Below, one piece after another: positions 10,380-38,344 of a stretch of 38,344 nucleotides of DNA (the stretch's first letter is position 1; each line of letters opens with the position of its first letter). The DNA comes from Frankiales bacterium (GTDB taxonomy: Bacteria > Actinomycetota > Actinomycetes > Mycobacteriales > SCTD01). A program made the translations under genes and the position numbers. The notes under the pieces are model-generated. The model did not search any database. It was not told the DNA's origin and saw only the letters and a program-made list of their open reading frames with translations. The DNA is taken from the NCBI GenBank assembly GCA_025965475.1, contig JAOPWV010000078.1, forward strand, positions 1-38,344, in the 5' to 3' direction.

Positions 10380-10410
10380 TCCGAAGATCACAGATCGGTT
10401 ACTGTCAACC

Positions 10411-10625: not shown

Positions 10626-10642
10626 GGAAGGACCCTGCGCTG

Positions 10643-11401: not shown

Positions 11402-11445
11402 GCCCATGATCGCGCCGCCGAGGGGGCCGGGGAGGTCCGCCCGCG

Positions 11446-16766: not shown

Positions 16767-16783
16767 GCCAGCCGGGCTGGGCC

Positions 16784-16829
16784 TTTTCGGAACTTCCACA
16801 GCACCCGGGTGCTGTGGAAGTTCCGAAAA
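16784..16829. repeat. Perfect 46-bp palindrome between purA and the convergent 2H phosphoesterase gene
   Basis: Two 23-base arms (16784-16806 and 16807-16829) are exact reverse complements with no spacer. The left arm begins TTTTCGGAACTTCC and the right arm ends GGAAGTTCCGAAAA. It sits between two convergent genes, so a role as a bidirectional terminator is natural. However, the base order is T-run, stem, A-run on either strand, opposite to an intrinsic terminator, which needs a U-run after the stem. It may therefore act as a plain hairpin or be a repeat element. No second copy occurs in the window. Confidence 0.8.
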
Positions 16830-16837
16830 CCGGTGGG

Positions 16838-17362: not shown

Positions 17363-17399
17363 GGCACCTCCGTCTGTTCGAGGGGTTGAGGCGAGACGC

Positions 17400-17405
17400 T
17401 AGCGT
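17400..17405 (+). promoter_or_regulatory. -10 element of purD
   Basis: TAGCGT lies eight bases before GTG 17414, so purD mRNA is probably leaderless or nearly so. Confidence 0.4.
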
Positions 17406-17413
17406 CGGACCCC

Positions 17414-19184: not shown

Positions 19185-19209
19185 TCGGCGGCCGAGGCGC
19201 GCGGTCTGG

Positions 19210-19215
19210 GAGAAT
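19210..19215 (+). promoter_or_regulatory. Possible -10 element of purB
   Basis: GAGAAT sits about 45 bases before purB and would give a leader of about 35-40 bases that includes the GAGGAG ribosome-binding site. It is a weak match to consensus, and read-through from purD-purE is also possible. Confidence 0.3.
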
Positions 19216-19260
19216 GGAGCGACCGCCCGCCTGTACGTCAGCACCGCGAGGAGCTTTCCC

Positions 19261-20568
19261 GTGATCGAGCGCTACACCCTGCCCGAGATGGGGCGGGTCT
19301 GGAGCGAGGCCCGCAAGTACGAGCTGTGGTGCCAGGTCGAGGTGCTCGTCCTCGAGGCCCACGCCGCGGCCGGCGTCGTACCCGCCGACAGCGTCGAGCC
19401 GGTACGCCGGGCGGCGCCGCCGACCCCGGAGGCCGTCGCGGAGATCGAGGCGGTGACCCAGCACGACGTCATCGCGTTCCTGTCGGCCTGGGCCGACAAC
19501 ACCGAACCGCGCGAGGCGGCGGCGTACGTGCACTTCGGCATGACGTCTTCCGACCTGCTCGACACGGCGCTGGCCCTGCAGCTCGTCGAGGCCACCGACA
19601 TCCTGCTGGCCAAGGCCGACACCCTGGTCGCCGCGCTGCGCGACCTCGGACTGAAGCACAAGGACACCGTCAAGGTCGGCCGTACGCACGGCATCCACGC
19701 CGAGCCGACGACGTGGGGGCACCGGGTCGCCGACCTGGCGTTCGCCATGGCCCGCTCGCGGGACCGGCTCACGCGCGCCCGTGACGCGGTCGCCGTCTGC
19801 AAGATCAGCGGCGCGGTCGGCACGTACTCCAACATCGACCCCTCCGTGGAGCAGACCGTCGCGGCGCGGCTCGGCCTCACCCCGTCCCCGGCCGCGACCC
19901 AGGTCGTCATCCGCGACGGCGTCAGCGAGTGGGTGTCGGCGCTGGCCGTCATCGCCACCGTCTGCGAGGCGTTCGCCCTCGAGGTGCGGCACGGGCAGCG
20001 CACCGAGGTCCGCGAGCTGTGGGAGCCGTTCGGCAAGGGCCAGAAGGGTTCCTCGGCCATGCCGCACAAGAAGAACCCGATCGCGTCGGAGCGGATCGCC
20101 GGGCTCGCCCGCGTCGTACGCGCCCAGGTCGTGCCGGTCATGGAGGGCATCCCGCTCTGGCACGAGCGCGACATCAGCCACTCCTCGACCGAGCGGGTCG
20201 CCCTGCCTGACGCCGCGATCGGCACCGACTACCTGCTCAACCTGACCACGCGGCTCGTCACCGGGCTCGTCGTCGACGCCGACCGGATGCGGGTGAACCT
20301 CGAGTCCTCCGGCGGCCTGATCTACACCTCGACCGTCCTGCTCGAACTGGTCGAGGGCGGCCTGTCGCGCGAGGACGCGTACTCCTTCGTCCAGCAGGCC
20401 GCCATGCGCACCTGGGAGACCGGCGTGCCGTTCCGGCAGACGCTGACCGAGCAGGCCGAGGCTGCCGGGCAGAAGCTGGACGAGGCGCGCCTCGACGAGG
20501 TCTGCCGCCCGGAGCGCTACCTCGAGCGGCTGGCCCCGGTCTTCGAGCGGCTCGCGGCGCTCACGTGA
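19261..20568 (+). CDS. purB: Adenylosuccinate lyase
   Basis: PurB removes fumarate from SAICAR and from adenylosuccinate, so it serves both the common purine pathway and the AMP branch. It has 435 residues of the aspartase/fumarase superfamily. Visible are HFGMTSSDLLDTALALQL, VKVGRTHGIHAEPTTWGH with the conserved His, and the signature loop GSSAMPHKKNP (about residues 263-273) carrying the catalytic Ser. GTG 19261 follows GAGGAG. The stop overlaps the purC start by 4 bases. Confidence 0.97.
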   Translation: MIERYTLPEMGRVWSEARKYELWCQVEVLVLEAHAAAGVVPADSVEPVRRAAPPTPEAVAEIEAVTQHDVIAFLSAWADNTEPREAAAYVHFGMTSSDLLDTALALQLVEATDILLAKADTLVAALRDLGLKHKDTVKVGRTHGIHAEPTTWGHRVADLAFAMARSRDRLTRARDAVAVCKISGAVGTYSNIDPSVEQTVAARLGLTPSPAATQVVIRDGVSEWVSALAVIATVCEAFALEVRHGQRTEVRELWEPFGKGQKGSSAMPHKKNPIASERIAGLARVVRAQVVPVMEGIPLWHERDISHSSTERVALPDAAIGTDYLLNLTTRLVTGLVVDADRMRVNLESSGGLIYTSTVLLELVEGGLSREDAYSFVQQAAMRTWETGVPFRQTLTEQAEAAGQKLDEARLDEVCRPERYLERLAPVFERLAALT

Positions 20569-21452
20569 TCCCCCTCCCGCTGGTCGCGCGCGGCAAGGTG
20601 CGCGACCTCTACGCGGTCGGGGACGACCAGCTGCTGCTCGTCGCGAGCGACCGCCTGTCGGCGTACGACGTCGTGCTGCCCAGCGGGATCCCCGACAAGG
20701 GCGCGGTGCTGACCGGGCTGTCGGTGTGGTGGTTCGAGCAGCTCGCCGACGTGGTGCCCAACCACCTGGTGACGGCGCGGGTGTCCGAGCTGCCCGAGGT
20801 GCTGCACCCGTACGCCGAGGAGCTGCGCGGCCGGTCGATGCTCTGCCGTCGGCTCGACATGGTGCAGGTCGAGTGCGTGGCCCGCGGCTACCTCACCGGC
20901 GGCGGCCTGACGGAGTACCAGGCGTCGGGCTCGGTCTGCGGCGTACCGCTGCCGGCCGGGCTGGTGGACGGCTCGCGGCTGCCCGAGCCCATCTTCACGC
21001 CGACGTCCAAGGCGCCGGTCGGCGAGCACGACCTGCCGATGACGTACGACGAGGTGGTGGCCCAGCTCGGCCCCGAGCTGTCCGAGGAGGTGCGGGCGAC
21101 CACGCTCGACATCTACCGGCGCGGTGCGGCGGTGGCCGAGAAGGCCGGCATCCTGCTCGCCGACACCAAGGTCGAGCTCGGTCTGGAGAACGGCCGGCTC
21201 GTGCTGGGCGACGAGGTGCTCACCCCGGACAGCAGCCGGTTCTGGCCGGCCTCGTCGTGGGAGCCGGGTCACGCGCAGCCGTCGTACGACAAGCAGTTCG
21301 TCCGCGACTGGCTGACCGCGTCCGGCTGGGACCGCACCCCGCCGGGACCCGAGCTGCCCGCCTCGGTGCTGGAGCAGACCCGCGACAAGTACGTCGAGGC
21401 CTACGAGCGGCTGACCGGCTCGTCGTTCGACTCCTGGCTCCGCGAGAGCTGA
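20565..21452 (+). CDS. purC: SAICAR synthase
   Basis: PurC joins CAIR and aspartate with ATP to make SAICAR. It has 295 residues, the long form common in actinobacteria. The glycine-rich start RGKVRDLYAVGD, SDRLSAYDVVLPSGIPDKG, VECVARGYLTGGGL and the signature LADTKVELGLENGRLVLGDE are all present. The GTG start overlaps the purB stop (GTGA), indicating translational coupling. Its product is the substrate of PurB encoded just upstream. Confidence 0.97.
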   Translation: MIPLPLVARGKVRDLYAVGDDQLLLVASDRLSAYDVVLPSGIPDKGAVLTGLSVWWFEQLADVVPNHLVTARVSELPEVLHPYAEELRGRSMLCRRLDMVQVECVARGYLTGGGLTEYQASGSVCGVPLPAGLVDGSRLPEPIFTPTSKAPVGEHDLPMTYDEVVAQLGPELSEEVRATTLDIYRRGAAVAEKAGILLADTKVELGLENGRLVLGDEVLTPDSSRFWPASSWEPGHAQPSYDKQFVRDWLTASGWDRTPPGPELPASVLEQTRDKYVEAYERLTGSSFDSWLRES

Positions 21453-21477
21453 CCCCTCGGCCGCGGTGCGGCGTCGG

Positions 21478-21483
21478 TAGGCT
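21478..21483 (+). promoter_or_regulatory. -10 element of a probable leaderless purS promoter
   Basis: TAGGCT lies seven bases before GTG 21491 in the short gap after purC. It would give purS and the genes behind it their own transcript start. Confidence 0.5.
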
Positions 21484-21490
21484 GCCTGCC

Positions 21491-21739
21491 GTGGCCGCCG
21501 TGAAGATCGTCGTGGACGTGATGCTCAAGCCGGAGATCCTGGATCCGCAGGGGCAGGCGGTGTCCAACGCCCTGCCGAACCTCGGGTTCGCGACCGCGGG
21601 CAGCCTGCGCATCGGCAAGCACGTCGAGCTCGAGCTCGAGGCGGACACCGACCGGGCCGCGCTCGACCAGGCCACCCGGATCGCCGAGACGCTGCTGGCC
21701 AATCCTGTGATCGAGGACTTCACCGTCCGCCTGGCCTGA
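21491..21739 (+). CDS. purS: FGAM synthase subunit PurS
   Basis: An 82-residue small subunit of the PurS-PurQ-PurL FGAM synthase, thought to help ammonia pass from PurQ to PurL. It has the family's opening VVVDVMLKPEILDPQGQAV, then NLGFATAGSLRIGKHVELEL, and ends LLANPVIEDFTVRLA. GTG 21491 is fixed by the TAGGCT box seven bases before it. An unrelated RsbW-like gene separates it from purQ. Confidence 0.95.
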   Translation: MAAVKIVVDVMLKPEILDPQGQAVSNALPNLGFATAGSLRIGKHVELELEADTDRAALDQATRIAETLLANPVIEDFTVRLA

Positions 21740-21793
21740 ACGGGCCTAACCCTCTGATCATCGGGTACGTGGGCCTCCGACGAGGAGGTGTCC

Positions 21794-22294
21794 GTGGAGA
21801 TCAAACTGACGCTCGCCCTGCCGCGGGACGAGCTGTCCGTGCCTGTCGTACGCCGCATCCTCAAGAACTCGATGCAGACCCTCGGGGTGCGCCGGGACGT
21901 GATCTCCGACATCGAGCTGGCCCTCACCGAGGCGGCGACCAACGCCCTCGACCATGCGCAGAACGGCGGCGAGTACGAGGTCTCGGCCGGCATCGACGGC
22001 CACCGCTGCATCATCGAGGTGCTCGACCGCGGCAACGGCTTCGACGGCGAGGCCCTCGGGCACCTGGAGGCGGACGTCAGGGCCGAGGACGGCCGCGGCA
22101 TCCAGCTGATGCGTGCATCGGTCGACAAGGTCACCTTCGACAGCCGCCCGACGGTCGGCACCGTCGTGCATCTCGAGAAGATCCTCGAGTGGGACGAGGG
22201 CTCGGTCATCAAGCAGCTGACCGAGAACCACCCCGCGATCGAGCACGGCCCCTGGCATTCGGACGACACTCAGGACGTGCCAGCCCCGCCCTGA
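21794..22294 (+). CDS. RsbW-like anti-sigma/serine-protein kinase (GHKL ATPase)
   Basis: A 166-residue protein with the HATPase_c fold of RsbW/SpoIIAB-type regulators, which bind a sigma factor and phosphorylate an anti-anti-sigma protein. The N box ELALTEAATNALDHAQ, G1 motif VLDRGNGFD and G2 motif EDGRGIQLMRASVD are all clear. GTG 21794 is chosen because AGGAGG (21783-21788) lies five bases before it; GTG 21788 would overlap that site. No partner sigma factor or STAS gene is adjacent. It sits within the purine cluster, between purS and purQ, suggesting shared expression. Confidence 0.88.
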   Translation: MEIKLTLALPRDELSVPVVRRILKNSMQTLGVRRDVISDIELALTEAATNALDHAQNGGEYEVSAGIDGHRCIIEVLDRGNGFDGEALGHLEADVRAEDGRGIQLMRASVDKVTFDSRPTVGTVVHLEKILEWDEGSVIKQLTENHPAIEHGPWHSDDTQDVPAPP

Positions 22295-22302
22295 GCCGCC
22301 GG

Positions 22303-22308
22303 TAGGCT
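22303..22308 (+). promoter_or_regulatory. -10 element of a probable leaderless purQ promoter
   Basis: TAGGCT, identical to the purS box, lies six bases before ATG 22315 in the 20-bp gap after the RsbW-like gene. Confidence 0.5.
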
Positions 22309-22314
22309 GGACGC

Positions 22315-22992
22315 ATGTCCGCTCGGATCGGCGTCGTCACGTTCCCCGGCAGTCTCGACGACCGCGACGCGCAGCGCGCGGTCCGTCTCTCGGGTGCCGA
22401 ACCCGTCCCCCTCTGGCACGGTGACGGGGATCTGCACGGCGTCGACGCCGTGGTCCTGCCGGGCGGTTTCTCGTACGGCGACTACCTGCGGTGCGGCGCC
22501 ATCGCGCGGTTCGCCCCGGTCATGAACGCGATCGTCGAGCAGGCCGCCGAGGGGCTGCCGGTCCTCGGGATCTGCAACGGGTTCCAGGTGCTGTGCGAGT
22601 CGCACCTGCTCCCCGGCGCCCTCACCCGCAACCAGAACCTCCACTTCGTCAACCGCGACCAGCGGCTGCGCGTCGACTCCACGGCCACGCTCTGGACCGG
22701 CGGTTACGACCAGGGCCAGGAGATCGTCATCCCCGTCAAGAACGGTGAAGGCTGCTATGTCGCCGACGAACGCACCCTCGACCAGCTCGAGGCCGAGGGC
22801 CGGATCGTCGCGCGGTACGTCGGCGGCAACCCTAACGGCAGCGCCCGGGACATCGCCGGCATTGCGAACGAGCGCGGCAACGTGGTCGGTCTCATGCCGC
22901 ACCCGGAGCACGCGGTGGAGCACCTCACCGGTCCCGGCACCGACGGCCTGGGCTTCTTCACGAGCGTCCTGAAGGCGCTGGTGTCCGCGTGA
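22315..22992 (+). CDS. purQ: FGAM synthase subunit PurQ (glutaminase)
   Basis: PurQ releases ammonia from glutamine for FGAM synthase. It is a class I glutamine amidotransferase of 225 residues: [18 protein letters not shown] (oxyanion strand), nucleophile Cys in [13 protein letters not shown] (about residue 85), and the His/Glu pair in [11 protein letters not shown] near the C-terminus. The N-terminus [19 protein letters not shown] is typical. Its stop overlaps the purL start by 4 bases. Confidence 0.97.
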
Positions 22993-25289
22993 GCCTCGAC
23001 AGCGTCGACCGCGCGGCCGGGACCCCCGACGAGGAGCAGCCCTACCTCGAGCTCGGGCTGAAGGACGACGAGTACGCCCGGGTCCGCGAGATCCTCGGCC
23101 GTCGTCCCACGCAGACCGAGCTCGCGATGTACTCGATCATGTGGAGCGAGCACTGCTCCTACAAGAGCAGCAAGGTGCACCTGCGCCAGTTCGCTGACAT
23201 GCCCGAGAACGAGCGGCTCCTCGTCGGGATGGGTGAGAACGCCGGCGTCGTCGACGTCGGCGAGGGGCTCGCCGTCACGTTCAAGGTGGAGAGCCACAAC
23301 CACCCGTCGTACGTCGAGCCGTACCAGGGCGCGGCGACCGGCGTCGGCGGCATCGTGCGCGACATCCTCACGATGGGCGCCCGCCCGGTGCTGGTGATGG
23401 ACCCGCTGCGGTTCGGCGACATCGACCACCCGGACACCCAGCGGGTGCTGCCCGGGATCGTGGCCGGCATCGGTGGCTACGGGAACTGCCTCGGTCTGCC
23501 CAACATCGGCGGCGAGGTCGTCTTCGACCCGACCTACCAGGGCAACCCGCTCGTCAACGCCCTCTGCCTCGGCGTCATGCCCAAGGACCGGATCCAGCTG
23601 TCCGCGGCCACGGGCGTCGGCAACGTCGTCGTCCTGCTCGGGGCGAAGACCGGCCGGGACGGCATCGGCGGCGTGTCCGTCCTCGCCTCCGCCACCTTCG
23701 ACGACGACGGCCCCGCCAACCGGCCCGCCGTGCAGGTCGGCGACCCGTTCACCGAGAAGTTGCTCATCGAGGCCTGCCTCGAGATGTACGACGCCAAGCT
23801 CGTGCAGGGCATCCAGGACCTCGGCGGAGCCGGCCTGACCTGCGCCCTCACCGAGACGTCAGCGGCCGGCAAGAGCGGGATGCACGCGCACCTCGAGCGG
23901 GTCCCGCTGCGCGAGGCGAGCATGGAGCCGCACGAGATCCTCGCGAGCGAGTCGCAGGAGCGGATGCTGGCCATCGTCACGCCCGAGGACCTGCCCGCCG
24001 TGCTGGCCATCGCCGAGAAGTGGGGCGTGCTCGCCACCGACATCGGCGAGGTCACCGACGGCGACCGCCTCGTCATCAGCTGGCACGACGAGGTCGTCGT
24101 GGACGTGCCGCCCGGCTCGCTCGCCGACGACGGACCGGTCTACACCCGGCCCATCGAGCGTCCGGCGGACCAGGACGAGCTGGCCGCGAACGCGCTGCCC
24201 GCCTACCCGGACGCCGCCGGCCTGCGCGCGCTGCTGCTCCGCATGATCGCCAGCCCCAACCTGTGCAGCCGCCGCTGGGTCGTCGAGCAGTTCGACCGCG
24301 TCGTGCTCGGCGACACCGTGCTGGCCTGGCCGGAGGACGCCGGCGTCGTACGGCTGTCCGAGGAGACCGGCCTGGGGATCGCGCTGGCCACCGACGGCAA
24401 CGGCCGGTACACCCGGTTGGACCCGTACGCCGGCGCCCAGCTGGCCCTGGCTGAGGCCTACCGCAACGTCGTCGCGACCGGTGCCGTCCCGATCGCGGTG
24501 ACCAACTGCCTCAACTTCGGCTCGCCCGAGGACCCGGCCGTGATGTGGCAGTTCGCCGAGGCCACCCGCGGGCTGGCCGAGGCGTGCCGCGAGCTGGGCA
24601 CCCCGGTCACCGGCGGCAACGTCAGCTTCTACAACCAGACGGGCAGCACCCCGATCAACCCCACCCCGGTCGTCGGTGTCCTCGGCCTGTTCGACGACGT
24701 GGCCCGGCGGACGCCGATGGGTTTCCGCGACGAGGGCGAGACCCTGCTGCTCCTCGGCGACACCCGCGACGAGCTCGGCGGCTCGGAGTGGGCCTGGGCC
24801 GAGCACCGCCACCTCGGTGGCCGCCCGCCGGCCGTCGACCTGGCGCGGGAGAAGCTGCTCGGCGAGGTGCTGGTCTCCGGCAGCCGCGACGGCATGCTGT
24901 CCGCCGCGCACGACCTGTCCGACGGCGGGCTCGCGCAGGCGCTGGTCGAGTCGGCGCTGCGGTTCGGCACCGGCGCGCGGGTCGTCCTGCCCCAGGGCCA
25001 GGGCCAGGACCCGTTCGTGCAACTGTTCAGTGAGTCCGCGGGGCGCGCGCTCGTCGCCGTACCGCGCTCGGAGGAGCTGCGCTTCACCGAGATGTGCGCC
25101 GCCCGCGGCCTGCCGTGCACCCGTATCGGTGTGACCGACGGCCAGGGCGACGGCGCGACGCTCGAGGTCCAGGACCTGTTCACGGTGCCGCTGGCCGAGC
25201 TGCGCGAGGCCTACGAGAGCACCCTGCCCCGGATGTTCGGGCCGCTGGCCGGCGCGACGGCGGACGCCCCGGCGGCGCCCGCCCTCTGA
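22989..25289 (+). CDS. purL: FGAM synthase subunit PurL
   Basis: The large catalytic subunit, converting FGAR to FGAM with ATP and ammonia. It has 766 residues, the small-PurL form that needs separate PurS and PurQ, both encoded just upstream. Features are [16 protein letters not shown] (substrate His), [49 protein letters not shown], and in the second half [12 protein letters not shown] and [17 protein letters not shown] 22989 overlaps the purQ stop. The next gene starts one base after the stop. Confidence 0.98.
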
Positions 25290-25290
25290 C

Positions 25291-26025
25291 GTGGCCAAGG
25301 GTCCGTCGTACGACGTCCTCCGCGCGGCCCTCGACGCCCAGTGGGAGCTGCTCGTCGCGGCGCTGACGGCGGCCGACCCGGCGGCGCCGACCCGCTGCGC
25401 CGGGTGGGCGGTACGCGACGTCGACGCCCACCTGGGCTCGATCACCGCCGGACTCGGGCGGCTCGCTGCCCTGGCCGGCCCCGGCCGGCCGGACACCGAC
25501 GTCGCGGGGTGGGCCGCCGCGCTACCCGCGCTGGCCGGCCTCATCGCCGAGGACGCCCGTGGTGCGGACACGAGGCTGGCGGATGCTGTGCCGGCGACTC
25601 AGGCAGCCCTCGCGGGTGTGGATCCGGAGTACGTCGTGGAGCAGCGGACCGGGTCGCACCGGCTCGCCGACGCCGTGCTGTTCCGGCTGATCGAGGCGGT
25701 CGTCCACGGGCTCGACCTGCCCGAACCCGTGGCGCCCGACCGGCGGGCCCTGCAGATCGCGGTCCGCGCGCTGGCCCAGATCCTGGCCGCGCGCGCCCCC
25801 GGGCGCAGCGTCGAGGTCCGCATCCCGCCGCACGCCGCGGTGCAGGCCGTCGAGGGGCCCCGGCACACCCGCGGCACCCCGCCGAACGTCGTGGAGTGCG
25901 ACCCGGTGGCGTTCGTCGAGCTGGCCACCGGACGACTGGCCTGGGCCGACGCCGTGGCGGACGGGCGGGTGCGGGCCAGCGGCGAACGGGCCGACCTGTC
26001 GCCGTGGCTCCCGCTGCTGTCCTGA
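25291..26025 (+). CDS. Sterol-carrier/maleylpyruvate isomerase-like family protein
   Basis: A 244-residue protein of a family commonly found between purL and purF in actinobacteria. The N-terminal half has the DinB/mycothiol-dependent maleylpyruvate isomerase shape: [17 protein letters not shown] (about residues 33-51) and an [15 protein letters not shown] helix with the His. The C-terminal half, with [36 protein letters not shown] and [19 protein letters not shown], resembles the sterol-carrier-like domain. The true activity is unknown; a thiol-dependent role is only a family-level guess. GTG 25291 follows the purL stop with a one-base gap. Confidence 0.82.
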
Positions 26026-26046
26026 CCATCTGCTCCAGGCCGTCGT

Positions 26047-26077
26047 ATCAGGTCAACTACACTCGATCAGGTCGACT
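26047..26077 (+). promoter_or_regulatory. purF promoter with a 12-bp direct repeat around its -10 element
   Basis: ATCAGGTCAACT (26047-26058) and ATCAGGTCGACT (26066-26077) differ at one base and are 19 bp apart. Between them lies TACACT (26058-26063), a good -10 box that would give a leader of about 40 bases ahead of purF, with GAGGAG as ribosome-binding site. The repeats flank and overlap the -10 box, a position suited to repressor binding. No known regulator motif is recognised. Confidence 0.5.
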
Positions 26078-26109
26078 CCCCCGTCTCCGCCTTTGAGGAG
26101 CTCCCCCGC

Positions 26110-27714
26110 GTGCCTGCTGCACACGGCCTGACGGAAGACCTCTACGCACCCGAGCCGCCCGTCGGCGAGGAGTGCGGTGTCTTCGGCGTATGGGCTCCCG
26201 GTGAGGACGTCGCCAAGCTGACGTACTACGGCCTCTACGCCCTGCAGCACCGCGGCCAGGAGGCCGCGGGTATCGCGGTCTCCGATGGCAGCGCGGTGCT
26301 CGTCTACAAGGATCTCGGCCTGGTCGCCCAGGTCTTCGACGAGCCGACCCTGTCCAGTCTCAAGGGCCACCTGGCCATCGGGCACTGCCGGTACAGCACG
26401 ACCGGCAGCGGTACCTGGGAGAACGCGCAGCCGTCGTTCCGCACCCTGTCCACCGGCGGCAGCCTGGCGCTGAGCCACAACGGCAACCTCACCAACACCA
26501 GCGAGCTGGCCCGGCAGGTCGCGCAGATCGACCACCGCGACGGCATGGGCGCGACGACCGACTCGGACCTCATCACCACCCTGCTCGCGGCGAAGCCGGA
26601 CGTGCCGCTCGACGTGGCCGCGCTCGAGGTCCTGCCCCTGCTCAAGGGCGCGTTCTCCCTCGTCTTCATGGACGAGCACACGCTCTATGCCGCCCGCGAC
26701 CCGCACGGCGTCCGCCCGCTGGTCCTCGGCCTGCTCGAGCGGGGCTGGGTCGTGGCCAGCGAGACTGCCGCGCTGGACATCGTCGGCGCCTCCTTCGTCC
26801 GGGAGATCGAACCCGGCGAGCTGCTGGCGATCGACGAGCACGGCGTGCGCAGCCAGCGCTTCGCCGAGGCGAACCGCAAGGGCTGCCTCTTCGAGTACGT
26901 CTACCTCGCCCGGCCGGACACGACGATCGCCGGCCAGTCGGTCAACACCACGCGCGTGCAGACCGGCCGGACCCTCGCCTTCGAGGCCCCGGTGGACGCC
27001 GACCTCGTCATCCCGGTCCCCGAGTCCGGTACGCCGGCCGCGATCGGTTACGCCGAGCAGAGCGGCATCCCGTACGGGCAGGGCCTGGTGAAGAACGGGT
27101 ACGTGGGGCGCACGTTCATCCAGCCGTCGCAGACGATCCGGCAGCTCGGCATCCGGCTCAAGCTCAACCCGCTGCGCGACGTCATCAAGGGCAAGCGGCT
27201 GGTCGTCGTCGACGACTCGATCGTGCGCGGCAACACCCAGCGTGCCCTGGTGCGGATGCTGCGCGAGGCGGGCGCCGCGGAGGTGCACGTGCGCATCTCC
27301 AGCCCGCCCGTCATGTGGCCGTGCTTCTACGGCATCGACTTCGCGAGCCGGGCCGAACTCATCGCCAGCGGGCTCGGCGTGGAGCAGATCCGCGCGAGCA
27401 TCGGCGCCGACTCGCTGGCCTTCGTCAGCCTGGAGGGCCTGACGGCGGCGAGCAACCAGCGGGCGAGCGAGCTCTGCCGCGCCTGCTTCACCGGCGAGTA
27501 CCCCATCGAGATCCCGCAGCCGGACCTCATCGGCAAGCACGTTCTGGAAGGCCTCACGCGCAATGCTGTCACCGACCTCGAGGCCGAGCACATCGTCGAC
27601 CACACCCACGCGGACAACGGGATGACCGTCGTGCACAACGGCGGCGACGGCGTCGACGAGTTCGACGCGCTGCTGGCCACCGCCGCCGCCCCCGACGACG
27701 CGGGCCGGTCGTGA
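26110..27714 (+). CDS. purF: Amidophosphoribosyltransferase
   Basis: PurF makes phosphoribosylamine from PRPP and glutamine, the first committed step of purine synthesis. It has 534 residues. A short propeptide precedes the nucleophile Cys22 in GEECGVFGVWAP, followed by YGLYALQHRGQEAAG, the GHCRYSTTGS segment and SHNGNLTN. The PRPP loop is VVVDDSIVRGNT. Cysteines in RKGCLFEY, WPCFYG and LCRACF match the four ligands of the Bacillus-type 4Fe-4S cluster, so it is an oxygen-sensitive form. GTG 26110 has GAGGAG upstream. The stop overlaps purM (GTGA). A possible operator lies in its promoter. Confidence 0.97.
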   Translation: MPAAHGLTEDLYAPEPPVGEECGVFGVWAPGEDVAKLTYYGLYALQHRGQEAAGIAVSDGSAVLVYKDLGLVAQVFDEPTLSSLKGHLAIGHCRYSTTGSGTWENAQPSFRTLSTGGSLALSHNGNLTNTSELARQVAQIDHRDGMGATTDSDLITTLLAAKPDVPLDVAALEVLPLLKGAFSLVFMDEHTLYAARDPHGVRPLVLGLLERGWVVASETAALDIVGASFVREIEPGELLAIDEHGVRSQRFAEANRKGCLFEYVYLARPDTTIAGQSVNTTRVQTGRTLAFEAPVDADLVIPVPESGTPAAIGYAEQSGIPYGQGLVKNGYVGRTFIQPSQTIRQLGIRLKLNPLRDVIKGKRLVVVDDSIVRGNTQRALVRMLREAGAAEVHVRISSPPVMWPCFYGIDFASRAELIASGLGVEQIRASIGADSLAFVSLEGLTAASNQRASELCRACFTGEYPIEIPQPDLIGKHVLEGLTRNAVTDLEAEHIVDHTHADNGMTVVHNGGDGVDEFDALLATAAAPDDAGRS

Positions 27715-28790
27715 GCCGCCGTACGCCCGAGGGCATGGATCCCGCGGTCCGGTCGTCGTACGCCGCCGCGGGCGTCGACATCGAGGCGGGTGACCGCGCG
27801 GTCGAGCTGATGAAGAGCCAGGTCGCGCGGGCGACCCGGCCCGAGGTTGTCGGCGGCCTCGGCGGGTTCGCCGGGCTGTTCCGCCTCGACACCTCGAAGT
27901 ACAAGCAGCCGCTGCTCGCCAGCAGCACCGACGGCGTCGGGACCAAGCTGGCCATCGCCCAGGCGATGGACCGGCACGACACCGTCGGCATCGACCTGGT
28001 CGGCATGGTCGTCGACGACCTGGTCGTGTGCGGCGCCGAGCCGCTGTTCCTGCAGGACTACATAGCCTGCGGTCAGGTGGTCCCGGAGCGGATCGCCCAG
28101 ATCGTCGGCGGCATCGCGGCCGGGTGCGAGCTGGCCGGCTGCGCGCTGGTCGGCGGCGAGACCGCCGAGCACCCGGGCCTGATGAGCCCCGAGCACTACG
28201 ACATCGCCGGCACCGGCGTCGGCGTCGTCGAGGCCGATCTGGCGCTCGGACCGGAGCGCGTGCAGGCCGGCGACGTGGTCATCGCGATGGGCTCGAGCGG
28301 CCTGCACAGCAACGGCTACTCGCTGGTGCGGCACGTGCTCCTGCAGGGCGCCCGGCTGCGGCTGGACGCCGTCGTCGACGAGCTGGACCGCCCGCTGGGC
28401 GAGGAACTGCTCGTCCCGACGCGGATCTACGCGAAGGACTGTCTGTCTCTCATCGAGGAGACCGACGTCCACGCGTTCGCGCACATCACGGGCGGTGGCC
28501 TCGCGGCCAACCTCGCCCGGGTGCTGCCGCAGCACCTGTCGGCGACCATCGACCGCGGTACCTGGACCCCGGCCCCGGTGTTCTCCCTGGTGGCCGGCCG
28601 CGGCCGCGTCGAGCAGGCCGAGATGGACCGGACGTTCAACATGGGCGTCGGTATGGTCGCGCTGGTCCCGCCGGCGGACGTGGACCGCGCGCTGGCGCTG
28701 CTGACGGCCCGGCACGTGCCCGCGTGGGTGGCCGGGACGGTCACGGCCGGCAACGGCGACGTCGAGATGGCCGGCACCCACCCCGCCTGA
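27711..28790 (+). CDS. purM: AIR synthase
   Basis: PurM closes FGAM to AIR with ATP. It has 359 residues of the PurM/SelD fold: SYAAAGVDIEAGDRAVELMK, ASSTDGVGTKLAIA (nucleotide loop, about residues 66-79), DLVVCGAEPLFLQDYIACG, ALVGGETAEHPGLM, and GSSGLHSNGYSLVR. ITGGGLAANLARVLP and TFNMGVGMVALVP complete the second domain. GTG 27711 overlaps the purF stop by 4 bases. It is the last purine gene in the window. Confidence 0.97.
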   Translation: MSRRTPEGMDPAVRSSYAAAGVDIEAGDRAVELMKSQVARATRPEVVGGLGGFAGLFRLDTSKYKQPLLASSTDGVGTKLAIAQAMDRHDTVGIDLVGMVVDDLVVCGAEPLFLQDYIACGQVVPERIAQIVGGIAAGCELAGCALVGGETAEHPGLMSPEHYDIAGTGVGVVEADLALGPERVQAGDVVIAMGSSGLHSNGYSLVRHVLLQGARLRLDAVVDELDRPLGEELLVPTRIYAKDCLSLIEETDVHAFAHITGGGLAANLARVLPQHLSATIDRGTWTPAPVFSLVAGRGRVEQAEMDRTFNMGVGMVALVPPADVDRALALLTARHVPAWVAGTVTAGNGDVEMAGTHPA

Positions 28791-32139: not shown

Positions 32140-32215
32140 TGGTGGTCAGGGACGGGATCGAACCGCCGACCCCGCGCTTTTCAGGCGCGTGCTCTACCAG
32201 CTGAGCTACCTGACC
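32140..32215 (-). tRNA. tRNA-Phe (GAA), CCA encoded
   Basis: Acceptor arms GGTCAGG and CCTGACC pair fully. The anticodon stem CGCGC/GCGCG carries loop CTGAAAA, so the anticodon is GAA. The T loop is TTCGATC. Discriminator A at 32143 is followed by an encoded CCA (32140-32142 on the plus strand as TGG). It is the last of three tRNAs on this strand. Confidence 0.97.
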
Positions 32216-32221
32216 GGGTCT

Positions 32222-32244
32222 GTGCAGTGGGCCGGCCCCTGCAC
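32222..32244. other. Hairpin in the spacer between tRNA-Phe and tRNA-Asp
   Basis: GTGCAG (32222-32227) and CTGCAC (32239-32244) enclose GGGCC and GGCCC, giving a nearly continuous stem with one bulged base. It lies in the precursor of the tRNA operon and may guide processing or help separate the tRNAs. Confidence 0.45.
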
Positions 32245-32263
32245 GAAGCAGGGGGTGATGCAG

Positions 32264-32337
32264 CGACCCCGACGGGACTCGAACCCGCGACCTCCGCCGT
32301 GACAGGGCGGCGCGCTAACCAACTGCGCTACGGGGCC
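32264..32337 (-). tRNA. tRNA-Asp (GTC)
   Basis: Acceptor arms GGCCCCG and CGGGGTC (one G-U pair); anticodon stem CCGCC/GGCGG with loop CTGTCAC gives anticodon GTC. The T arm has GGGTTCGAGTCCC. Discriminator G is followed by CTG, so CCA is not encoded and must be added. Confidence 0.97.
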
Positions 32338-32388
32338 TGGAAGGTTCCAAGCCGTTCTTGCTGTCGTGCTTACCGACACTACTTGCCG

Positions 32389-32461
32389 TGCCCCCAACGG
32401 GATTCGAACCCGCGTAGCCACCTTGAAAGGGTGGAGTCCTAGGCCGCTAGACGATGGGGAC
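32389..32461 (-). tRNA. tRNA-Glu (TTC)
   Basis: Acceptor arms GTCCCCA and TGGGGGC; anticodon stem CCACC/GGTGG with loop CTTTCAA gives anticodon TTC. The T arm is GCGGGTTCGAATCCCGT. Discriminator A is followed by CGG, so CCA is not encoded. It is the first tRNA of the Glu-Asp-Phe operon; the PadR-type gene upstream on the same strand ends 86 bases earlier. Confidence 0.97.
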
Positions 32462-32547: not shown

Positions 32548-33084
32548 TCAACCGGTGTTCTCCGCTTCGAACTCGACCCAGAACTGCAGTGCCGCCCGCT
32601 CCAGCTGCAGCCCCAGGCGCAGGGGCACCATCCGGGTGGCCACGCCGGGCACGCCGGCGAACCGGAGCTGCATCTGCTCGTACACCGCGATCCGCTGCTG
32701 GTGCTGCCGGACCTGCTCGCGGGCCAGCTCGAGCATGTCCTTGGCGTCGGCCAGCTCCCCGAAGAACAGCTTGAGCTCGGCGACGTCGCGGACCTGCAGC
32801 TGCTCGGTGGTGGGCTCGCCCAGCCACAGCCGCAGCTCGGACAGGCCTTCCTCGGTGATCGTGTACGTCTGCTTGCGCCGGCCGTGCTCCTCGGCGATGA
32901 CGTCCAGCAGCCCCAGCTCGACCAGCCGCTTGGGCTCGGAGTACAGCTGCGCGTGCGGGAAGGGCCAGAAGTACCCGACCGAGTGGCCCACGGCCCGCTT
33001 GAGTTCGTACGACGTGGACGGGCCACGCATGGCGACCATGCCGAGGACGACGTACGAGGTCGTCGTGAGACGTGCGGTTGACAC
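32548..33084 (-). CDS. PadR family transcriptional regulator
   Basis: A 178-residue PadR-type repressor. The N-terminal winged helix (about residues 5-85) has TTTSYVVLGMVAMRGPSTSY, FWPFPHAQLYSEPKRLVELG and RRKQTYTITEEGLSEL, all typical of the family. The C-terminal half is a long helical dimerisation domain (KDMLELAREQVRQHQQRIAV). PadR proteins often sense phenolic or other aromatic acids. It is divergent from the acyl-CoA ligase operon across 69 bp that contain a short palindrome, so it is the likely regulator of that operon. GTG 33084 is the only sensible start. Confidence 0.9.
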   Translation of the reverse strand: MSTARLTTTSYVVLGMVAMRGPSTSYELKRAVGHSVGYFWPFPHAQLYSEPKRLVELGLLDVIAEEHGRRKQTYTITEEGLSELRLWLGEPTTEQLQVRDVAELKLFFGELADAKDMLELAREQVRQHQQRIAVYEQMQLRFAGVPGVATRMVPLRLGLQLERAALQFWVEFEAENTG

Positions 33085-33127
33085 GCTCCGAACCGTACCG
33101 TTACCGTCCTGACCTCCACAATGGATC

Positions 33128-33140
33128 GTCTGTTTCAGAC
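33128..33140. promoter_or_regulatory. Candidate operator palindrome ahead of the acyl-CoA ligase operon
   Basis: GTCTGTTTCAGAC is a perfect 5+3+5 palindrome 14 bases before ATG 33154 and 44 bases from the divergent regulator start. Three ACCGT copies lie close to the regulator start (about 33091-33108). Binding of the PadR-like protein here is an inference from position. Confidence 0.4.
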
Positions 33141-33153
33141 TATTGAGGACGAC

Positions 33154-34740
33154 ATGGACCTGGCCACCACGCTGAGCTGGACCGCAGAGCGCTACCCCCA
33201 CCGGCGTGCCGTCGGGGGACCCGCGCCTCTCACCTACCGCGAGTGGGATGCCCGGACGAACCAGGTCGCCCGCGCGCTGGCCCGCGCCGGTGCGCGCCCG
33301 GCGGACCGGGTCGTCCTCCTCATGCAGGGCGGGGAGCCGCTCGCGACGTTGCACCTGGCCGCCCAGAAGCTCGGCGTCGCCTCGGTTCCGCTCTCCATCC
33401 GGTTCGCCCCGGCAGAGGCCTTCCGCTGCATCGAGGACTGCGGTCCCACGCTGGTCGTGGTGGACGTGACGACCGCGGACCGGGTCCCGGCCGAGCTCGA
33501 GATCGCCGGCCGGCGCATCCCGGTGCTCTTCCAGGGCCCGCTGGAGCAGACCCCGCCGGGCATGGTGTGCCTGCCCGAGCTGGTCGCCCTCGAGAGCGAG
33601 GCGTCGCCGGAGGCGGCACCAGCGACCGATGCCATCAGCGTCATGCTGTACACGTCCGGCACGACCGGCCGCCCGAAGGGTGTCCCGCGGACGCACGCCG
33701 CCGAGCACGCGGCCGCGGTCGCCCACGTCATGCAGTCCGGTCACCGACCCGGCGAGGTGACGCTCGGGGTGATGCCGCTGTTCCACACCATGGGGCTGCG
33801 TTCGCTGCTGGCCAGCATCGTGACGGCCGGCACCTGGGTCCCGCAGGCCAGGTTCGACGCGGAGCAGTCCCTGGAGCTGATCACCCGCGAGCAGGTCAGC
33901 GCCCTCTACCTGGTGCCCACCATCTACTGGAGCCTGCTGCGCACCGGCCGGCTCGCCGACGCCACGTCGGTACGCCGGTTGGGCTACGCCGGCGCGGCGA
34001 TGACGCCGGCGCTCGCCGAGCAGCTCGTGGCGGCGGTGCAGCCCGAGCGGTTCATCAACCACTTCGGCAGCACCGAGATCTACACGTTCACCATCGGCCC
34101 GGACGTGGCGGCCAAGCCCGGCTGCGCGGGCCGCGCGGGCATGTTCTCGCGGGTGCGGCTCGTCGACCCGACCCCCGGGGCCTCTCCGGACCTCCTCGTC
34201 GCGGCCGGTGAGCAGGGCCAGGTCGCCGTGTCGATGAGCAGCCCTGAGGCGTTCGCCGGCTACTGGAACCGGCCGGACGCCGACGCCGCGGCCATCCGGG
34301 ACGGCTGGTACTTCACGGGTGACCTGGCCACCGCGGACGAGGACGGCGACCTGTGGGTCAGCGGCCGCGTGGACGACATGATCAACTCCGGCGGTGAGAA
34401 CATCTACCCGGACGAGATCGAGGACGCGCTGGTGCGCTGCCCCGCCGTCGACGAGGTGATCGTCGTCGGGCTCCCGGACGACCGGTGGGGTTCGGCGGTC
34501 ACCGCGTTCGTGGTCCCGCGGACCGGCGCCGACCCGGACAAGACCCTGGCCGAGCTGGACCGCTACCTGCGGACCGAGTCCGGTCTGCCGTCGCTCAAGC
34601 GCCCGAAGCGGCTCGTGGCAGTCGACGTGATCCCCAAGTCGGCCGTCGGCAAGATCCTGCGCCGCGAGCTCGCGGACGGGAAGTTCGTCCCGCTCGCCGA
34701 AGCCGCGGTCACCTCGAGCAGTCAGGAGCCGCAATCGTGA
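33154..34740 (+). CDS. AMP-forming acyl-CoA ligase (candidate 2-furoyl-CoA synthetase)
   Basis: A 528-residue ANL-superfamily ligase activating a carboxylic acid to its CoA thioester through an acyl-AMP. The P-loop is LYTSGTTGRPKGVPRTH (about residues 164-180); FGSTE, GWYFTGD, GRVDDMINSGGENIYPDEIE and the final Lys motif PKSAVGKILRREL are all in place. The next genes encode a molybdenum hydroxylase and an enoyl-CoA-hydratase-like protein, the same set as hmfD, hmfA and hmfE for 2-furoate breakdown, so furoate is a plausible substrate; benzoate-like acids are the alternative. ATG 33154 follows GAGG; the in-frame ATG 33121 would put the palindrome inside the gene. Confidence 0.88.
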   Translation: MDLATTLSWTAERYPHRRAVGGPAPLTYREWDARTNQVARALARAGARPADRVVLLMQGGEPLATLHLAAQKLGVASVPLSIRFAPAEAFRCIEDCGPTLVVVDVTTADRVPAELEIAGRRIPVLFQGPLEQTPPGMVCLPELVALESEASPEAAPATDAISVMLYTSGTTGRPKGVPRTHAAEHAAAVAHVMQSGHRPGEVTLGVMPLFHTMGLRSLLASIVTAGTWVPQARFDAEQSLELITREQVSALYLVPTIYWSLLRTGRLADATSVRRLGYAGAAMTPALAEQLVAAVQPERFINHFGSTEIYTFTIGPDVAAKPGCAGRAGMFSRVRLVDPTPGASPDLLVAAGEQGQVAVSMSSPEAFAGYWNRPDADAAAIRDGWYFTGDLATADEDGDLWVSGRVDDMINSGGENIYPDEIEDALVRCPAVDEVIVVGLPDDRWGSAVTAFVVPRTGADPDKTLAELDRYLRTESGLPSLKRPKRLVAVDVIPKSAVGKILRRELADGKFVPLAEAAVTSSSQEPQS

Positions 34741-37214
34741 GCATCATCGGACGGTCTCCGGGTTTCGTCGGTAGCTCCGTCGCGCGCGTCGAGGACCCCG
34801 CGCTGCTGTGCGGTCAGGGCCGCTTCCTCGATGACCTCGACCCCGTGCCGGGGACCCTCGTCGCCGCCGTCGTACGCAGCCCGCACGCGCACGCCCGGAT
34901 CCGCTCGGTCGACCTGAGCCGGGCCCGCGCCCACCCGGGTGTCGCCGCCGTGATCGGGCCGGACGAGGTGCGCGAGACGCTGCGCCCGTTCCCGCTCGCC
35001 GTCAAGACGGACATGCCGTACTACCCGACCGCCGTGGACAAGGTGCGGTACGTCGGCGAGCCGGTGGCCGTGGTGATCGCGAGCGACCGTTACATCGCCG
35101 AGGACGCCGCCGAGCTGGTCCGGGTCGACTACGAGCCGCTGCCCGCCGTCGTACGGACCGATGCCGCGCTGGCTCCCGAGGCGCCCGTGCTGCACGAGGG
35201 CGTCGGCAACAACGTCGCCACCGACCGGACCTTCACGTTCGGTGACGTGGACGCGGCGTTCGCCGGCGCGGACCGCGTGGTGCGCGGTTCGTACTCGTTC
35301 CCGCGCTACTCCTCGACGCCGATGGAGTGCTACGCGGTCGTCGCCGAGTGGCGGCAGGAGGTCGACGGGCCGGCGGTCAACGCCTGGGCCAACTTCCACG
35401 GGCCGTTCTCGATGGTCCCGGTGGTCGCCGGTTCGCTGGGCATCCCCACGTCGCGGCTGCGCCTCGTCGTTCCCGCCGACATCGGCGGCAGCTTCGGCAT
35501 CAAGGCCGGCATCTACCCGTACGTCGCCCTCATGGCGGTCGCCAGCAAGTACGCCGGCCGGCCGGTGCGGTGGACCGAGGACCGCGTCGAGCACCTGCTG
35601 TCCAGCTCGTCCGGTTCTGACCGGTTGATGAACATGGAGGCGGCCGTCGACGCCGACGGCACCATCCAGGCGCTGCGCGTCGACCTGATGGACAACGTCG
35701 GTGCCTACCTGCGGCCGCCCGAGCCCAGCACGCTCTACCGCTGCTTCGGCAACATCACCGGCGCCTACCGGGTGGACACGGTCGAGATCCGGGCCCGTGC
35801 GGTGGTGAGCAACAAGGCGCCGACCGGCCTCAACCGCGGCTTCGGCGGGCAGCAGCTGTACTTCGGCCTCGAGCGGCTGGTCGACCAGATCGCCACCGAG
35901 TGCGACATCGACCCCGCGGAGCTCCGCCGGCGCAACCTCGTCGCCGCGGACGCGTTCCCGTACGCGACGCCGACCGGCGGCATCTACGACTCCGGCAACT
36001 ACCAGGCGGCGTTCGAGCTGGCGCTGGCGAACGCCGACTACCCGAAGCTCCGGGAGGAGCAGCGGGCGGCCCGCGAACGCGGCGAGATGTTCGGCATCGG
36101 CATGGCCGTGATCGTCGACCCGTCCGCCACCAACATCGGGTACGTCGGGCTGGCCACGCCGTCCGAGGACCGCCCACCCGGCCGCGGCAAGTCGGGCTCG
36201 ACGGAGCACGTGCGCATCAGCGTGGACGTGCAGGGCATCGTGTCCGTGCTGCTCGGCACGGTCCCGCAGGGCCAGGGGCACGCGACGATCGCCCGTCAGG
36301 TGGTCGCCGACCAGCTCGGCCTGCCGATGGAGCAGGTCCGGGCCGTCGTCGAGATGGACACCGCCTCGACCCCCTGGACGATCAGCTCCGGCAGCTACTC
36401 CTCGCGGTTCGCGCCGCTGGTCACCAGCGCGCTGGTCGAGGCCGCCGAGGCGATCGCCCGTACGGTCCGGCTCGTTGCCGCCTCGATGCTCGGCGCCCAC
36501 CCCGACTCGCTCGAGCTGGTCGACGGCCTGGTGCGCGTGCGGGAGGAGCCGGCGCGGTCGGTGCAGTTCCGGCACGTCGCCGGGCTCGTCCACTGGGATC
36601 CGGGTTCGCTGCCCGACGGCCTGCCGGCCCGGCTCTACGAGGAGGCGGCGTTCACCCCGCCGCAGTCGACGGCCGCCTCGCGGACCGACCAGATCAACTC
36701 CAGCCTCTGCTACGGCTTCGTCGCCGAGGTCGTGACCTGCCGGATCGACCCGGACACCCTGCAGATCAAGCTCGAGGGTGTCTCCAGCGTCCACGACGCC
36801 GGGACGGTCCTGAACCCGATGCTGCTCGAGGGCCAGGTGCACGGGGCACTCGTCCAGGCGCTGGGCGGCGCGATGTACGAGGAGATGCGCTACAGCGACT
36901 CCGGGCAGCCGACGGCGGCGACCTTCATGGACTACCTGTGCCCGACCACGGCGGAGTCCGACTTCCCGCTGATCAGCGACCACCTCTCGACGCCGTCCCC
37001 GCTGACCCGTCTCGGCGCGAAGGGCTCGGGCGAGGGCAGCTCGATGAGCTTCCCCGTCGCCGTGGCCAACGCCGTCGCCGACGCCCTCGCGCCGGCCGGG
37101 GTGGAGATCACCGCACTGCCGGTCCACGGCAGCGTGCTGCACGAACTGCTCGCGGCCGCCCAGGCCGACCCCGACGTACGGCCCACTGTTCACACCTCGA
37201 AGGGACACCACTGA
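34737..37214 (+). CDS. Xanthine dehydrogenase family molybdopterin-binding subunit (candidate furoyl-CoA dehydrogenase large subunit)
   Basis: An 825-residue catalytic subunit of a molybdenum hydroxylase of the xanthine oxidase family. The N-terminal domain opens VARVEDPALLCGQGRFLDDL and has FVRSPHAHA-like VVRSPHAHARI. Molybdopterin-binding segments are IGGSFGIKAG, GLNRGFGGQQ, QGQGHATIARQVV and, near the C-terminus, the catalytic Glu in LGAKGSGEGSSM. Such enzymes need a FAD subunit and a 2Fe-2S subunit; the FAD subunit starts at 38000. With the CoA ligase upstream, hydroxylation of an acyl-CoA such as 2-furoyl-CoA is suggested. CO dehydrogenase, nicotinate or caffeine-type enzymes are alternatives. 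It overlaps the ligase stop by 4 bases. Confidence 0.9.
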   Translation: MSIIGRSPGFVGSSVARVEDPALLCGQGRFLDDLDPVPGTLVAAVVRSPHAHARIRSVDLSRARAHPGVAAVIGPDEVRETLRPFPLAVKTDMPYYPTAVDKVRYVGEPVAVVIASDRYIAEDAAELVRVDYEPLPAVVRTDAALAPEAPVLHEGVGNNVATDRTFTFGDVDAAFAGADRVVRGSYSFPRYSSTPMECYAVVAEWRQEVDGPAVNAWANFHGPFSMVPVVAGSLGIPTSRLRLVVPADIGGSFGIKAGIYPYVALMAVASKYAGRPVRWTEDRVEHLLSSSSGSDRLMNMEAAVDADGTIQALRVDLMDNVGAYLRPPEPSTLYRCFGNITGAYRVDTVEIRARAVVSNKAPTGLNRGFGGQQLYFGLERLVDQIATECDIDPAELRRRNLVAADAFPYATPTGGIYDSGNYQAAFELALANADYPKLREEQRAARERGEMFGIGMAVIVDPSATNIGYVGLATPSEDRPPGRGKSGSTEHVRISVDVQGIVSVLLGTVPQGQGHATIARQVVADQLGLPMEQVRAVVEMDTASTPWTISSGSYSSRFAPLVTSALVEAAEAIARTVRLVAASMLGAHPDSLELVDGLVRVREEPARSVQFRHVAGLVHWDPGSLPDGLPARLYEEAAFTPPQSTAASRTDQINSSLCYGFVAEVVTCRIDPDTLQIKLEGVSSVHDAGTVLNPMLLEGQVHGALVQALGGAMYEEMRYSDSGQPTAATFMDYLCPTTAESDFPLISDHLSTPSPLTRLGAKGSGEGSSMSFPVAVANAVADALAPAGVEITALPVHGSVLHELLAAAQADPDVRPTVHTSKGHH

Positions 37215-37215
37215 C

Positions 37216-37995
37216 ATGCCGCTGACCGGAGGCGACATCCGGCTCGACCGCAGCCACGACGGACGGGTCGCGACCCTGACCCTCGAGAACGGCCGCTTCT
37301 CGATCGTCACGTTCGAGACCCGCCGGCTGATGGCTGAGCGCTTCGCCGAGATCGACGCCGACAAGGACGTCGCGGTCGTGGTGATCCGGTCCGCCGGGGA
37401 GCACTTCAGCTCCGGCGGCGACATCGCCGGGTTCATGGAGGTCGACCCGATCGACCTGACCGACCTGGGCCACGACATCACTGCCGCGTCCCGCAGCCCC
37501 AAGCCGGTGATCATCGCGATCGACGGCTACTGCTTCGGTGTCGGCCTGGAGCTCGCGCTGTCCTGCGACATCCGGCTGGCCACCGCCCGCAGCGAGTTCG
37601 CCCTGCCGGAGATGAAGCTCGGCATGATCCCGGGCAGCGGCGGTACGCAGCGGCTGGCCCGCCTCATCGGCCTGTCCCGCGCCAAGTACCACGTCCTGAC
37701 CGGCGAGCGGATCCACGCCAAGGAGGCCGGCGACTGGGGTCTGGTCGCCAAGGTCGTCGACGACGCGGCGGCGCTGGACGAGGCCGTCGAGAAGCTCGTC
37801 ACGACGATGCTGGCCCAGTCGCCGATCGCGATGCGGACGGCCAAGGAGGTCCTCGACCGTGGCGTCGACGGGCCCCTCTACACGGGTATCGAACTGGAGC
37901 GCAAGGCGTACTCGATGCTGCGCGCCAGCCATGACTTCGCCGAGGGTGTCGCTGCGTTCGGCGAGAAGCGCCGCCCGGTGTTCACGGGCCGGTGA
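37216..37995 (+). CDS. Enoyl-CoA hydratase/isomerase family protein lacking one catalytic Glu
   Basis: A 259-residue crotonase-fold protein. The oxyanion-hole segments HFSSGGDIAGF and IDGYCFGVGLELALSCDIR are present, as is the first catalytic Glu in FALPEMKLGMIPGSGGTQRL. At the place of the second hydratase Glu (the M-E-M-V-L-T-G of rat hydratase) this protein has AKYHVLTG, a Tyr. It is thus probably not a plain hydratase; a thioesterase, isomerase or hydrolase role fits, as for HmfE, described as acting late in furoate breakdown. ATG 37216 has AAGGGA upstream and follows the large subunit stop by one base, in the same operon. Confidence 0.88.
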   Translation: MPLTGGDIRLDRSHDGRVATLTLENGRFSIVTFETRRLMAERFAEIDADKDVAVVVIRSAGEHFSSGGDIAGFMEVDPIDLTDLGHDITAASRSPKPVIIAIDGYCFGVGLELALSCDIRLATARSEFALPEMKLGMIPGSGGTQRLARLIGLSRAKYHVLTGERIHAKEAGDWGLVAKVVDDAAALDEAVEKLVTTMLAQSPIAMRTAKEVLDRGVDGPLYTGIELERKAYSMLRASHDFAEGVAAFGEKRRPVFTGR

Positions 37996-37999
37996 TCAG

Positions 38000-38344
38000 G
38001 TGAAAGCCGCCCCGTTCGCCTACGTGCGTCCGTCCACCGTGGACGACGTACTGGCCGAGCTGGGCGCCGGCGAGGGTGCGAAGGTCCTCGCCGGCGGCCA
38101 GTCGCTCGTGCCTGTCCTGGCGATGCGGCTGGGGCGTCCGTCGACCCTCGTCGACATCAACGCCGTCGGGGCGCTCGGCTCGCTCGAGCGCCGCGACGGC
38201 GTGCTGACCGTCGGCGCGACCGTGCGCCAGCGGCAGGTCGAGCGCGACCTCGCCGGCGGTGGGACCACCGGCGGCGACGTACCACTGCTGCGGCTCGCGC
38301 TGCCGTGGGTGGGTCACCGCGAGCTGCGCAGCCGCGGCACGGTG
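38000..38344 (+). CDS. FAD-binding subunit of a molybdenum hydroxylase (3' truncated by the window edge)
   Basis: The first 115 codons of a CoxM/XdhB-like FAD subunit. It opens MKAAPFAYVRPSTVDDVLAE; the FAD pyrophosphate-binding motif KVLAGGQSLVPVLAMRLGRP and then TLVDINAVGAL follow, and the visible part ends in VGHRELRSRGTV, which normally precedes the second FAD motif. It should pass electrons from the large subunit at 34737 to an acceptor; the 2Fe-2S subunit is expected just outside the window. GTG 38000 lies five bases after the previous stop. Confidence 0.9.
   Translation, partial: MKAAPFAYVRPSTVDDVLAELGAGEGAKVLAGGQSLVPVLAMRLGRPSTLVDINAVGALGSLERRDGVLTVGATVRQRQVERDLAGGGTTGGDVPLLRLALPWVGHRELRSRGTV

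Follow-up and report, generated by a model that had tools for sequence, protein, structure and literature searches.

Gene content and organization of the locus

The window analyzed in this study is an entire contig (C193, JAOPWV010000078.1; 38,344 bases) from the genome of a Frankiales bacterium, and its last part contains an operon that resembles the hmf operons of Pseudomonadota for 2-furoate degradation. The source genome is 3.89 Mb in 215 contigs, with 98% completeness and 3.1% contamination. A gene for a PadR-family regulator (32548..33084, minus strand; PF03551 and PF10400) lies divergent from the operon. The plus strand then encodes an AMP-forming acyl-coenzyme A (CoA) ligase of the HmfD type, which is a predicted 2-furoyl-CoA synthetase (33154..34740; PF00501 and PF13193), a molybdopterin large subunit of the HmfA type, which is a predicted 2-furoyl-CoA dehydrogenase subunit (34737..37214; PF01315, PF02738 and PF20256), and a crotonase-fold protein of the HmfE type (37216..37995; PF00378), for which 2-oxoglutaryl-CoA hydrolysis and/or lactone hydrolysis is predicted. 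The last gene encodes the first 115 residues of a flavin adenine dinucleotide (FAD) subunit of the HmfB type (38000..38344; PF00941) and is cut at the contig end. A preliminary description of this DNA had reported a divergent PadR gene beside a tight row of these four plus-strand genes, and all five were located. The operon gene ends overlap or lie no more than 5 bases apart; for example, the large-subunit start overlaps the ligase stop by 4 bases. The ligase ATG at 33154 has GAGG upstream, and an alternative, longer start at 33121 would place the predicted operator described below within the gene. Because the contig ends at 38344, a 2Fe-2S gene could not be read in the window.

This block of genes is conserved across Actinomycetota. 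A large-subunit scan of GTDB genome contigs identified 56 loci, 53 of which were actinobacterial with 70-78% identity. Open reading frames were called with our own codon-usage method, by which gene starts are approximate, and were clustered. The block common to these loci comprises the divergent PadR gene, ligase, large subunit, crotonase, FAD subunit and 2Fe-2S subunit. Among the 51 loci examined, the crotonase was present in all 51, the FAD subunit in 48, the ligase and the 2Fe-2S subunit in 46 each, and a PadR orthologue in the same position in 45; several of these shortfalls are contig ends. The identical order in about 50 other actinobacterial genomes indicates that the gene arrangement is not due to chance. 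No orthologue was found at E<=1e-200 in 40 genomes near the source genome (3 of the same genus, 20 further ones of the same family and 17 of the same order), and thus the operon looks accessory in the source lineage.

Placement of the large subunit, ligase and crotonase

The furan-acid pathway proposed in the preliminary description depended on the large subunit not grouping with CO dehydrogenase and on the affinities of the ligase, and both trees agree with it. In the maximum-likelihood tree, the window large subunit and 15 actinobacterial orthologues form a group (support 100/100) that is nested in a clade with the reference HmfA proteins (100/100), and this HmfA clade includes neither the true CoxL of the source genome (L003; 1370 bits to TIGR02416) nor the other paralogs of that genome. 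The large subunit is 46-49% identical to HmfA and scores 656-782 bits against HmfA relatives, compared with at most 458 bits against the other relatives compared. The motif NKxPTGLxRGFGGxQxY is found in the window protein, in 34 of 51 actinobacterial proteins and in proteobacterial HmfA, the other 17 not matching the exact pattern. The GAKGSGE stretch with the active-site Glu is also present. The source genome is rich in such enzymes for its size of 3.9 Mb, with 16 matches to molybdenum hydroxylase large subunits, some of which are parts of one gene; these include the true form I CoxL and a grp5 CoxL (L008).

The ligase is 44-47% identical to proteobacterial and Bacillota HmfD proteins and falls in a 19-protein HmfD clade with 100/100 support. 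Its own-genome paralogs lie outside this clade, and several have long branches. The crotonase is 43-49% identical to HmfE, versus at most 36% to its nearest own-genome paralog by pairwise identity. The FAD fragment is 65-76% identical to its best orthologues and 41-45% identical to HmfB.

The 2Fe-2S subunit and the CoxG domain

The preliminary description had expected a 2Fe-2S subunit downstream of the window, and such a gene does follow the FAD gene in 46 of the 51 orthologous loci. These 46 proteins are 383-441 residues long, and all six that were checked against Pfam contain Fer2 and Fer2_2 followed by CoxG at the C-terminus. In proteobacterial HmfA, the CoxG domain instead occupies the C-terminus of the large subunit, at about residues 823-989, and the window large subunit has no such domain. 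Membrane anchoring of a dehydrogenase by CoxG homologues has been shown, and the same study cites such a role in the case of CO dehydrogenase (PMC11962113). By analogy, the furoyl-CoA dehydrogenase is probably docked at the membrane through its CoxG domain.

In the source genome, the sole good match to the 2Fe-2S subunit is on contig C128, which has the base composition of the window. This protein has the same Fer2, Fer2_2 and CoxG domains and is 63% identical to the Saccharopolyspora protein and 70% to a Nocardioides protein. Its gene directly follows an FAD fragment that begins at the first base of the contig (L079 1-738). The two FAD fragments share about 52 overlapping residues that are 42% identical, and the contigs have no 15-base overlap by which to join them, so C128 was not accepted as a simple continuation. 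Before about residue 118, the C128 fragment is out of family (36-37% versus 54-58%, residues 58-97), and this part, its first 60 residues or so, contrasts with the remaining FAD sequence and the entire 2Fe-2S-CoxG gene, which show ordinary in-family distances; the window FAD stops at residue 115. C128 is thus either the likely continuation of the window operon, with a chimeric contig start, or a recombinant second copy.

The PadR regulator and its predicted operator

A 19-bp palindrome, ATCGTCTG-TTT-CAGACGAT, was first read in the Saccharopolyspora loci. The window copy, ATCGTCTGTTTCAGACTAT (33125..33143), lies in the gap between the PadR and ligase genes, 10 bases 5' of the ligase ATG, and has one mismatch. 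It is the only site with three or fewer mismatches in the 3.89-Mb genome, and a reversed control gave none. The palindrome was also searched in 37 loci that leave out the Saccharopolyspora-type loci from which it was derived. In 29 of the 37, the best-matching site of the entire locus falls in the PadR-operon gap, which on average covers 1.7% of the sequence; with 100 permuted palindromes, the corresponding number of loci averaged 0.67 and reached 10 at most. The 29 loci are not independent events because related loci share ancestry. The conserved palindrome is a predicted operator to which PadR may bind. A further copy with three mismatches was found 95 bases 5' of a sodium:solute symporter gene in one locus (L034 4617-4635), and this symporter is likely another regulon member.

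Decarboxylase, probable upper-pathway and carrier genes

A UbiD-family decarboxylase is encoded in 14 of the 51 loci, within the locus stretches examined, and genes for UbiX, an aldehyde dehydrogenase (ALDH), a short-chain dehydrogenase/reductase (SDR) and a symporter are each present in 10-13 of the 51. The locus UbiD shares 53-60% identity with its counterparts next to the proteobacterial and Geobacillus operons. Among solved structures it is closest to PDB 6h6v (447 bits, with 219 for the next enzyme), which is that of HmfF (PMC8988006). A key determinant of furan specificity in HmfF is His297, and the equivalent residue in the pyrrole decarboxylase HudA/PA0254 is Asn318 (PMC7976604). At the position aligned to this histidine (residue 296 of the 6h6v chain as we counted it), all 15 operon-adjacent UbiD proteins and three reference UbiDs have His. 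In addition, a major facilitator superfamily (MFS) carrier is present in 23 of the 51 loci and is 49-51% identical to one adjoining proteobacterial hmfE.

The source genome encodes an HmfF-type gene outside the window. Contig C175 contains SDR, ALDH, UbiD and UbiX genes in a row at about 9130-13440 (L099 5131-9441), with identities to the orthologous genes of 74% for SDR, 58-62% for ALDH, 54% for UbiD and 67% for UbiX. The C175 UbiD is closest to 6h6v (363 bits versus 155 for the next enzyme) and has the furan-specificity histidine aligned in an SGGREHFLIGG stretch, and on both counts it is of the HmfF type. From these genes, the set is likely an upper pathway for 5-hydroxymethylfurfural (HMF) and 2,5-furandicarboxylate (FDCA) that stands apart from the window operon, and the genome would thus have enzymes to oxidise HMF acid and to decarboxylate FDCA, besides those for furoate degradation. 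No palindrome with three or fewer mismatches accompanies the C175 set, since the only one in the genome is in the window.

Comparison with known systems

The reference operons were found by a search of plasmid records and their proteins were termed Hmf by homology and operon content, a name that the records do not give them. The order A-B-C-D-E was found in Cupriavidus pinatubonensis, Dinoroseobacter shibae, Paraburkholderia aromaticivorans and Paracoccus yeei, and UbiD and UbiX genes adjoin the Dinoroseobacter and Paraburkholderia operons. Compared with hmfABCDE of Cupriavidus basilensis HMF14 and other Pseudomonadota, the actinobacterial operon has the same five functions, with best matches that indicate orthology for each, and both share HmfF/HmfG, ALDH and SDR or MFS neighbours. 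The gene set itself is known. What differs is the ligase-first order (D-A-E-B-C), control by PadR in place of AraC/LysR, and the CoxG domain carried on the 2Fe-2S subunit.

Outside Actinomycetota, the closest large subunit and crotonase (49%) are encoded on Geobacillus kaustophilus pHTA426, with UbiD nearby. That operon has a separate CoxG gene, the order A-CoxG-B-C-D-E and a helix-turn-helix regulator not annotated as PadR. In each of three phyla, the CoxG domain has a different carrier, which suggests that membrane or quinone docking is essential to the enzyme; such docking bears on the physiological electron acceptor of furoyl-CoA dehydrogenase. The HmfF of Pelotomaculum thermopropionicum (6h6v) is the nearest solved relative of both the locus and C175 UbiD proteins, and its specificity histidine is kept in them. 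Aerobic CO dehydrogenase (CoxSML and CoxG) shares the fold, the three-subunit plan and the CoxG partner, but differs in its Cys motif, in its clade and in the ligase and crotonase partners found here.

Two further observations concern these relatives. The pHTA426 plasmid has an R2-like ligand-binding oxidase gene (L080 3465-4343) between its UbiD/MFS genes and its hmf-like operon. Also, a plasmid of Halorussus vallis (L083) encodes an HmfA-clade large subunit, two ligases, a BenE carrier and a PaaI thioesterase, with no crotonase listed; it is possibly an archaeal furoate pathway with another thioesterase.

Proposed function and alternatives

2-Furoic acid is a product of heated plant sugars. 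We consider it highly probable, from comparison of sequences, that the operon in the window is an actinobacterial form of hmf that allows growth on 2-furoate. The steps would be those of the furoate pathway described previously (PMC6678421, PMC12064950). The ligase would convert 2-furoate to 2-furoyl-CoA, and the molybdenum/FAD/2Fe-2S enzyme would hydroxylate C5 of 2-furoyl-CoA with water. The hydroxylated product would tautomerise to a lactone and be hydrolysed, and the crotonase-fold protein would release 2-oxoglutarate from 2-oxoglutaryl-CoA. The enzyme is probably held at the membrane by the CoxG domain of its 2Fe-2S subunit, so that its electrons would pass to the respiratory chain. PadR probably represses the operon through the palindrome 5' of the ligase start and would be released by a furan acid or the corresponding CoA ester. 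FDCA could enter through the HmfF/HmfG pair encoded elsewhere in the source genome. A more specific proposal is that the furoyl-CoA dehydrogenases of Actinomycetota form a class of their own, in which a quinone- or membrane-docking CoxG domain on the 2Fe-2S subunit feeds the respiratory chain and a dedicated PadR furan-acid sensor acts at the newly defined palindromic operator; we put this forward tentatively, at slightly less than an even chance.

Several points weigh against the furoate assignment. No HmfA-HmfE model was among the NCBIfam matches listed, and thus no curated Hmf cut-off could be reached. The reference operons are homologues rather than the tested proteins of C. basilensis HMF14 (ADE20399-ADE20403; PMC6678421). 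The window contig itself has no 2Fe-2S gene, the C128 gene being a candidate with an unproven join, and the support comes from sequence comparison, with the substrate inferred. Lastly, 37 of the 51 loci have no UbiD in the stretches examined. This last point would also fit an operon that applies the same CoA-dependent chemistry to another five-ring heteroaromatic acid, such as pyrrole-2-carboxylate or thiophene-2-carboxylate, with furoate as a side substrate, and the ligase and dehydrogenase scaffolds would suit such acids. However, the UbiD proteins beside 14 loci have the furan-linked His where HudA has Asn and are far nearer to 6h6v than to the HudA/PA0254 structure 4ip2 (75 bits), and the HmfE partner suits 2-oxoglutaryl-CoA release, which together leave this explanation unlikely.

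Two other readings concern different enzyme types. An N-heterocycle or aromatic-acid hydroxylase operon unrelated to furans (of the quinoline, nicotinate or 4-hydroxybenzoyl-CoA type) could draw on membership of the same enzyme superfamily and on the match to quinoline oxidoreductase 1t3q (390 bits), but the score for 4-hydroxybenzoyl-CoA reductase was 386 bits against a cut-off of 995 (TIGR03194), the large subunit scores far higher with HmfA relatives, and each partner gene has its match among the hmf partners. We regard this whole class as very improbable. For an aerobic CO dehydrogenase or CoxL-like operon, the best-matching solved structure is a CoxL (8uem) and CoxG domains do occur; the AYxCSFR motif is absent, the TIGR02416 score of 476 bits is below the cut-off of 991, the true CoxL paralog is outside the clade and the operon has a dedicated ligase and crotonase, and we give this reading almost no credence. 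The CO dehydrogenase, 4-hydroxybenzoyl-CoA reductase and N-heterocycle hydroxylase readings were all rejected from the position in the tree, the motif and the curated cut-offs.

The furan-acid pathway of the preliminary description is therefore supported by the HmfA and HmfD clades and strengthened by the HmfF-type decarboxylases and the MFS carrier, with the substrate a prediction. It is also extended by the CoxG fusion, the operator and the upper-pathway genes, which that description did not contain. Furoate and FDCA catabolism, detailed only for Pseudomonadota in the literature searched, would extend to a broad set of Actinomycetota that includes culturable Saccharopolyspora, Amycolatopsis, Streptomyces, Nocardioides and Pseudonocardia. 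No account of an actinobacterial hmf operon was found in that literature, a partial body without most subscription papers. The predicted operator is testable and may be useful in a biosensor for furan acids from biomass hydrolysates.

Neighbouring genes

Three tRNA genes (Phe, Asp and Glu) on the minus strand, at 32140-32461 of the window, end directly beside the PadR gene. A tRNA-linked insertion is possible because the operon is absent from the 40 near relatives; a conserved insertion site of this kind was not supported, though, because the orthologous loci are not adjacent to tRNAs. A foreign base composition was looked for in the operon and none was seen. Further upstream, at 15480-28787, the window contains ordinary purine biosynthesis genes, namely adenylosuccinate synthetase and lyase, SAICAR synthetase, parts of FGAM synthetase, an amidophosphoribosyltransferase-like gene and AIR synthetase.

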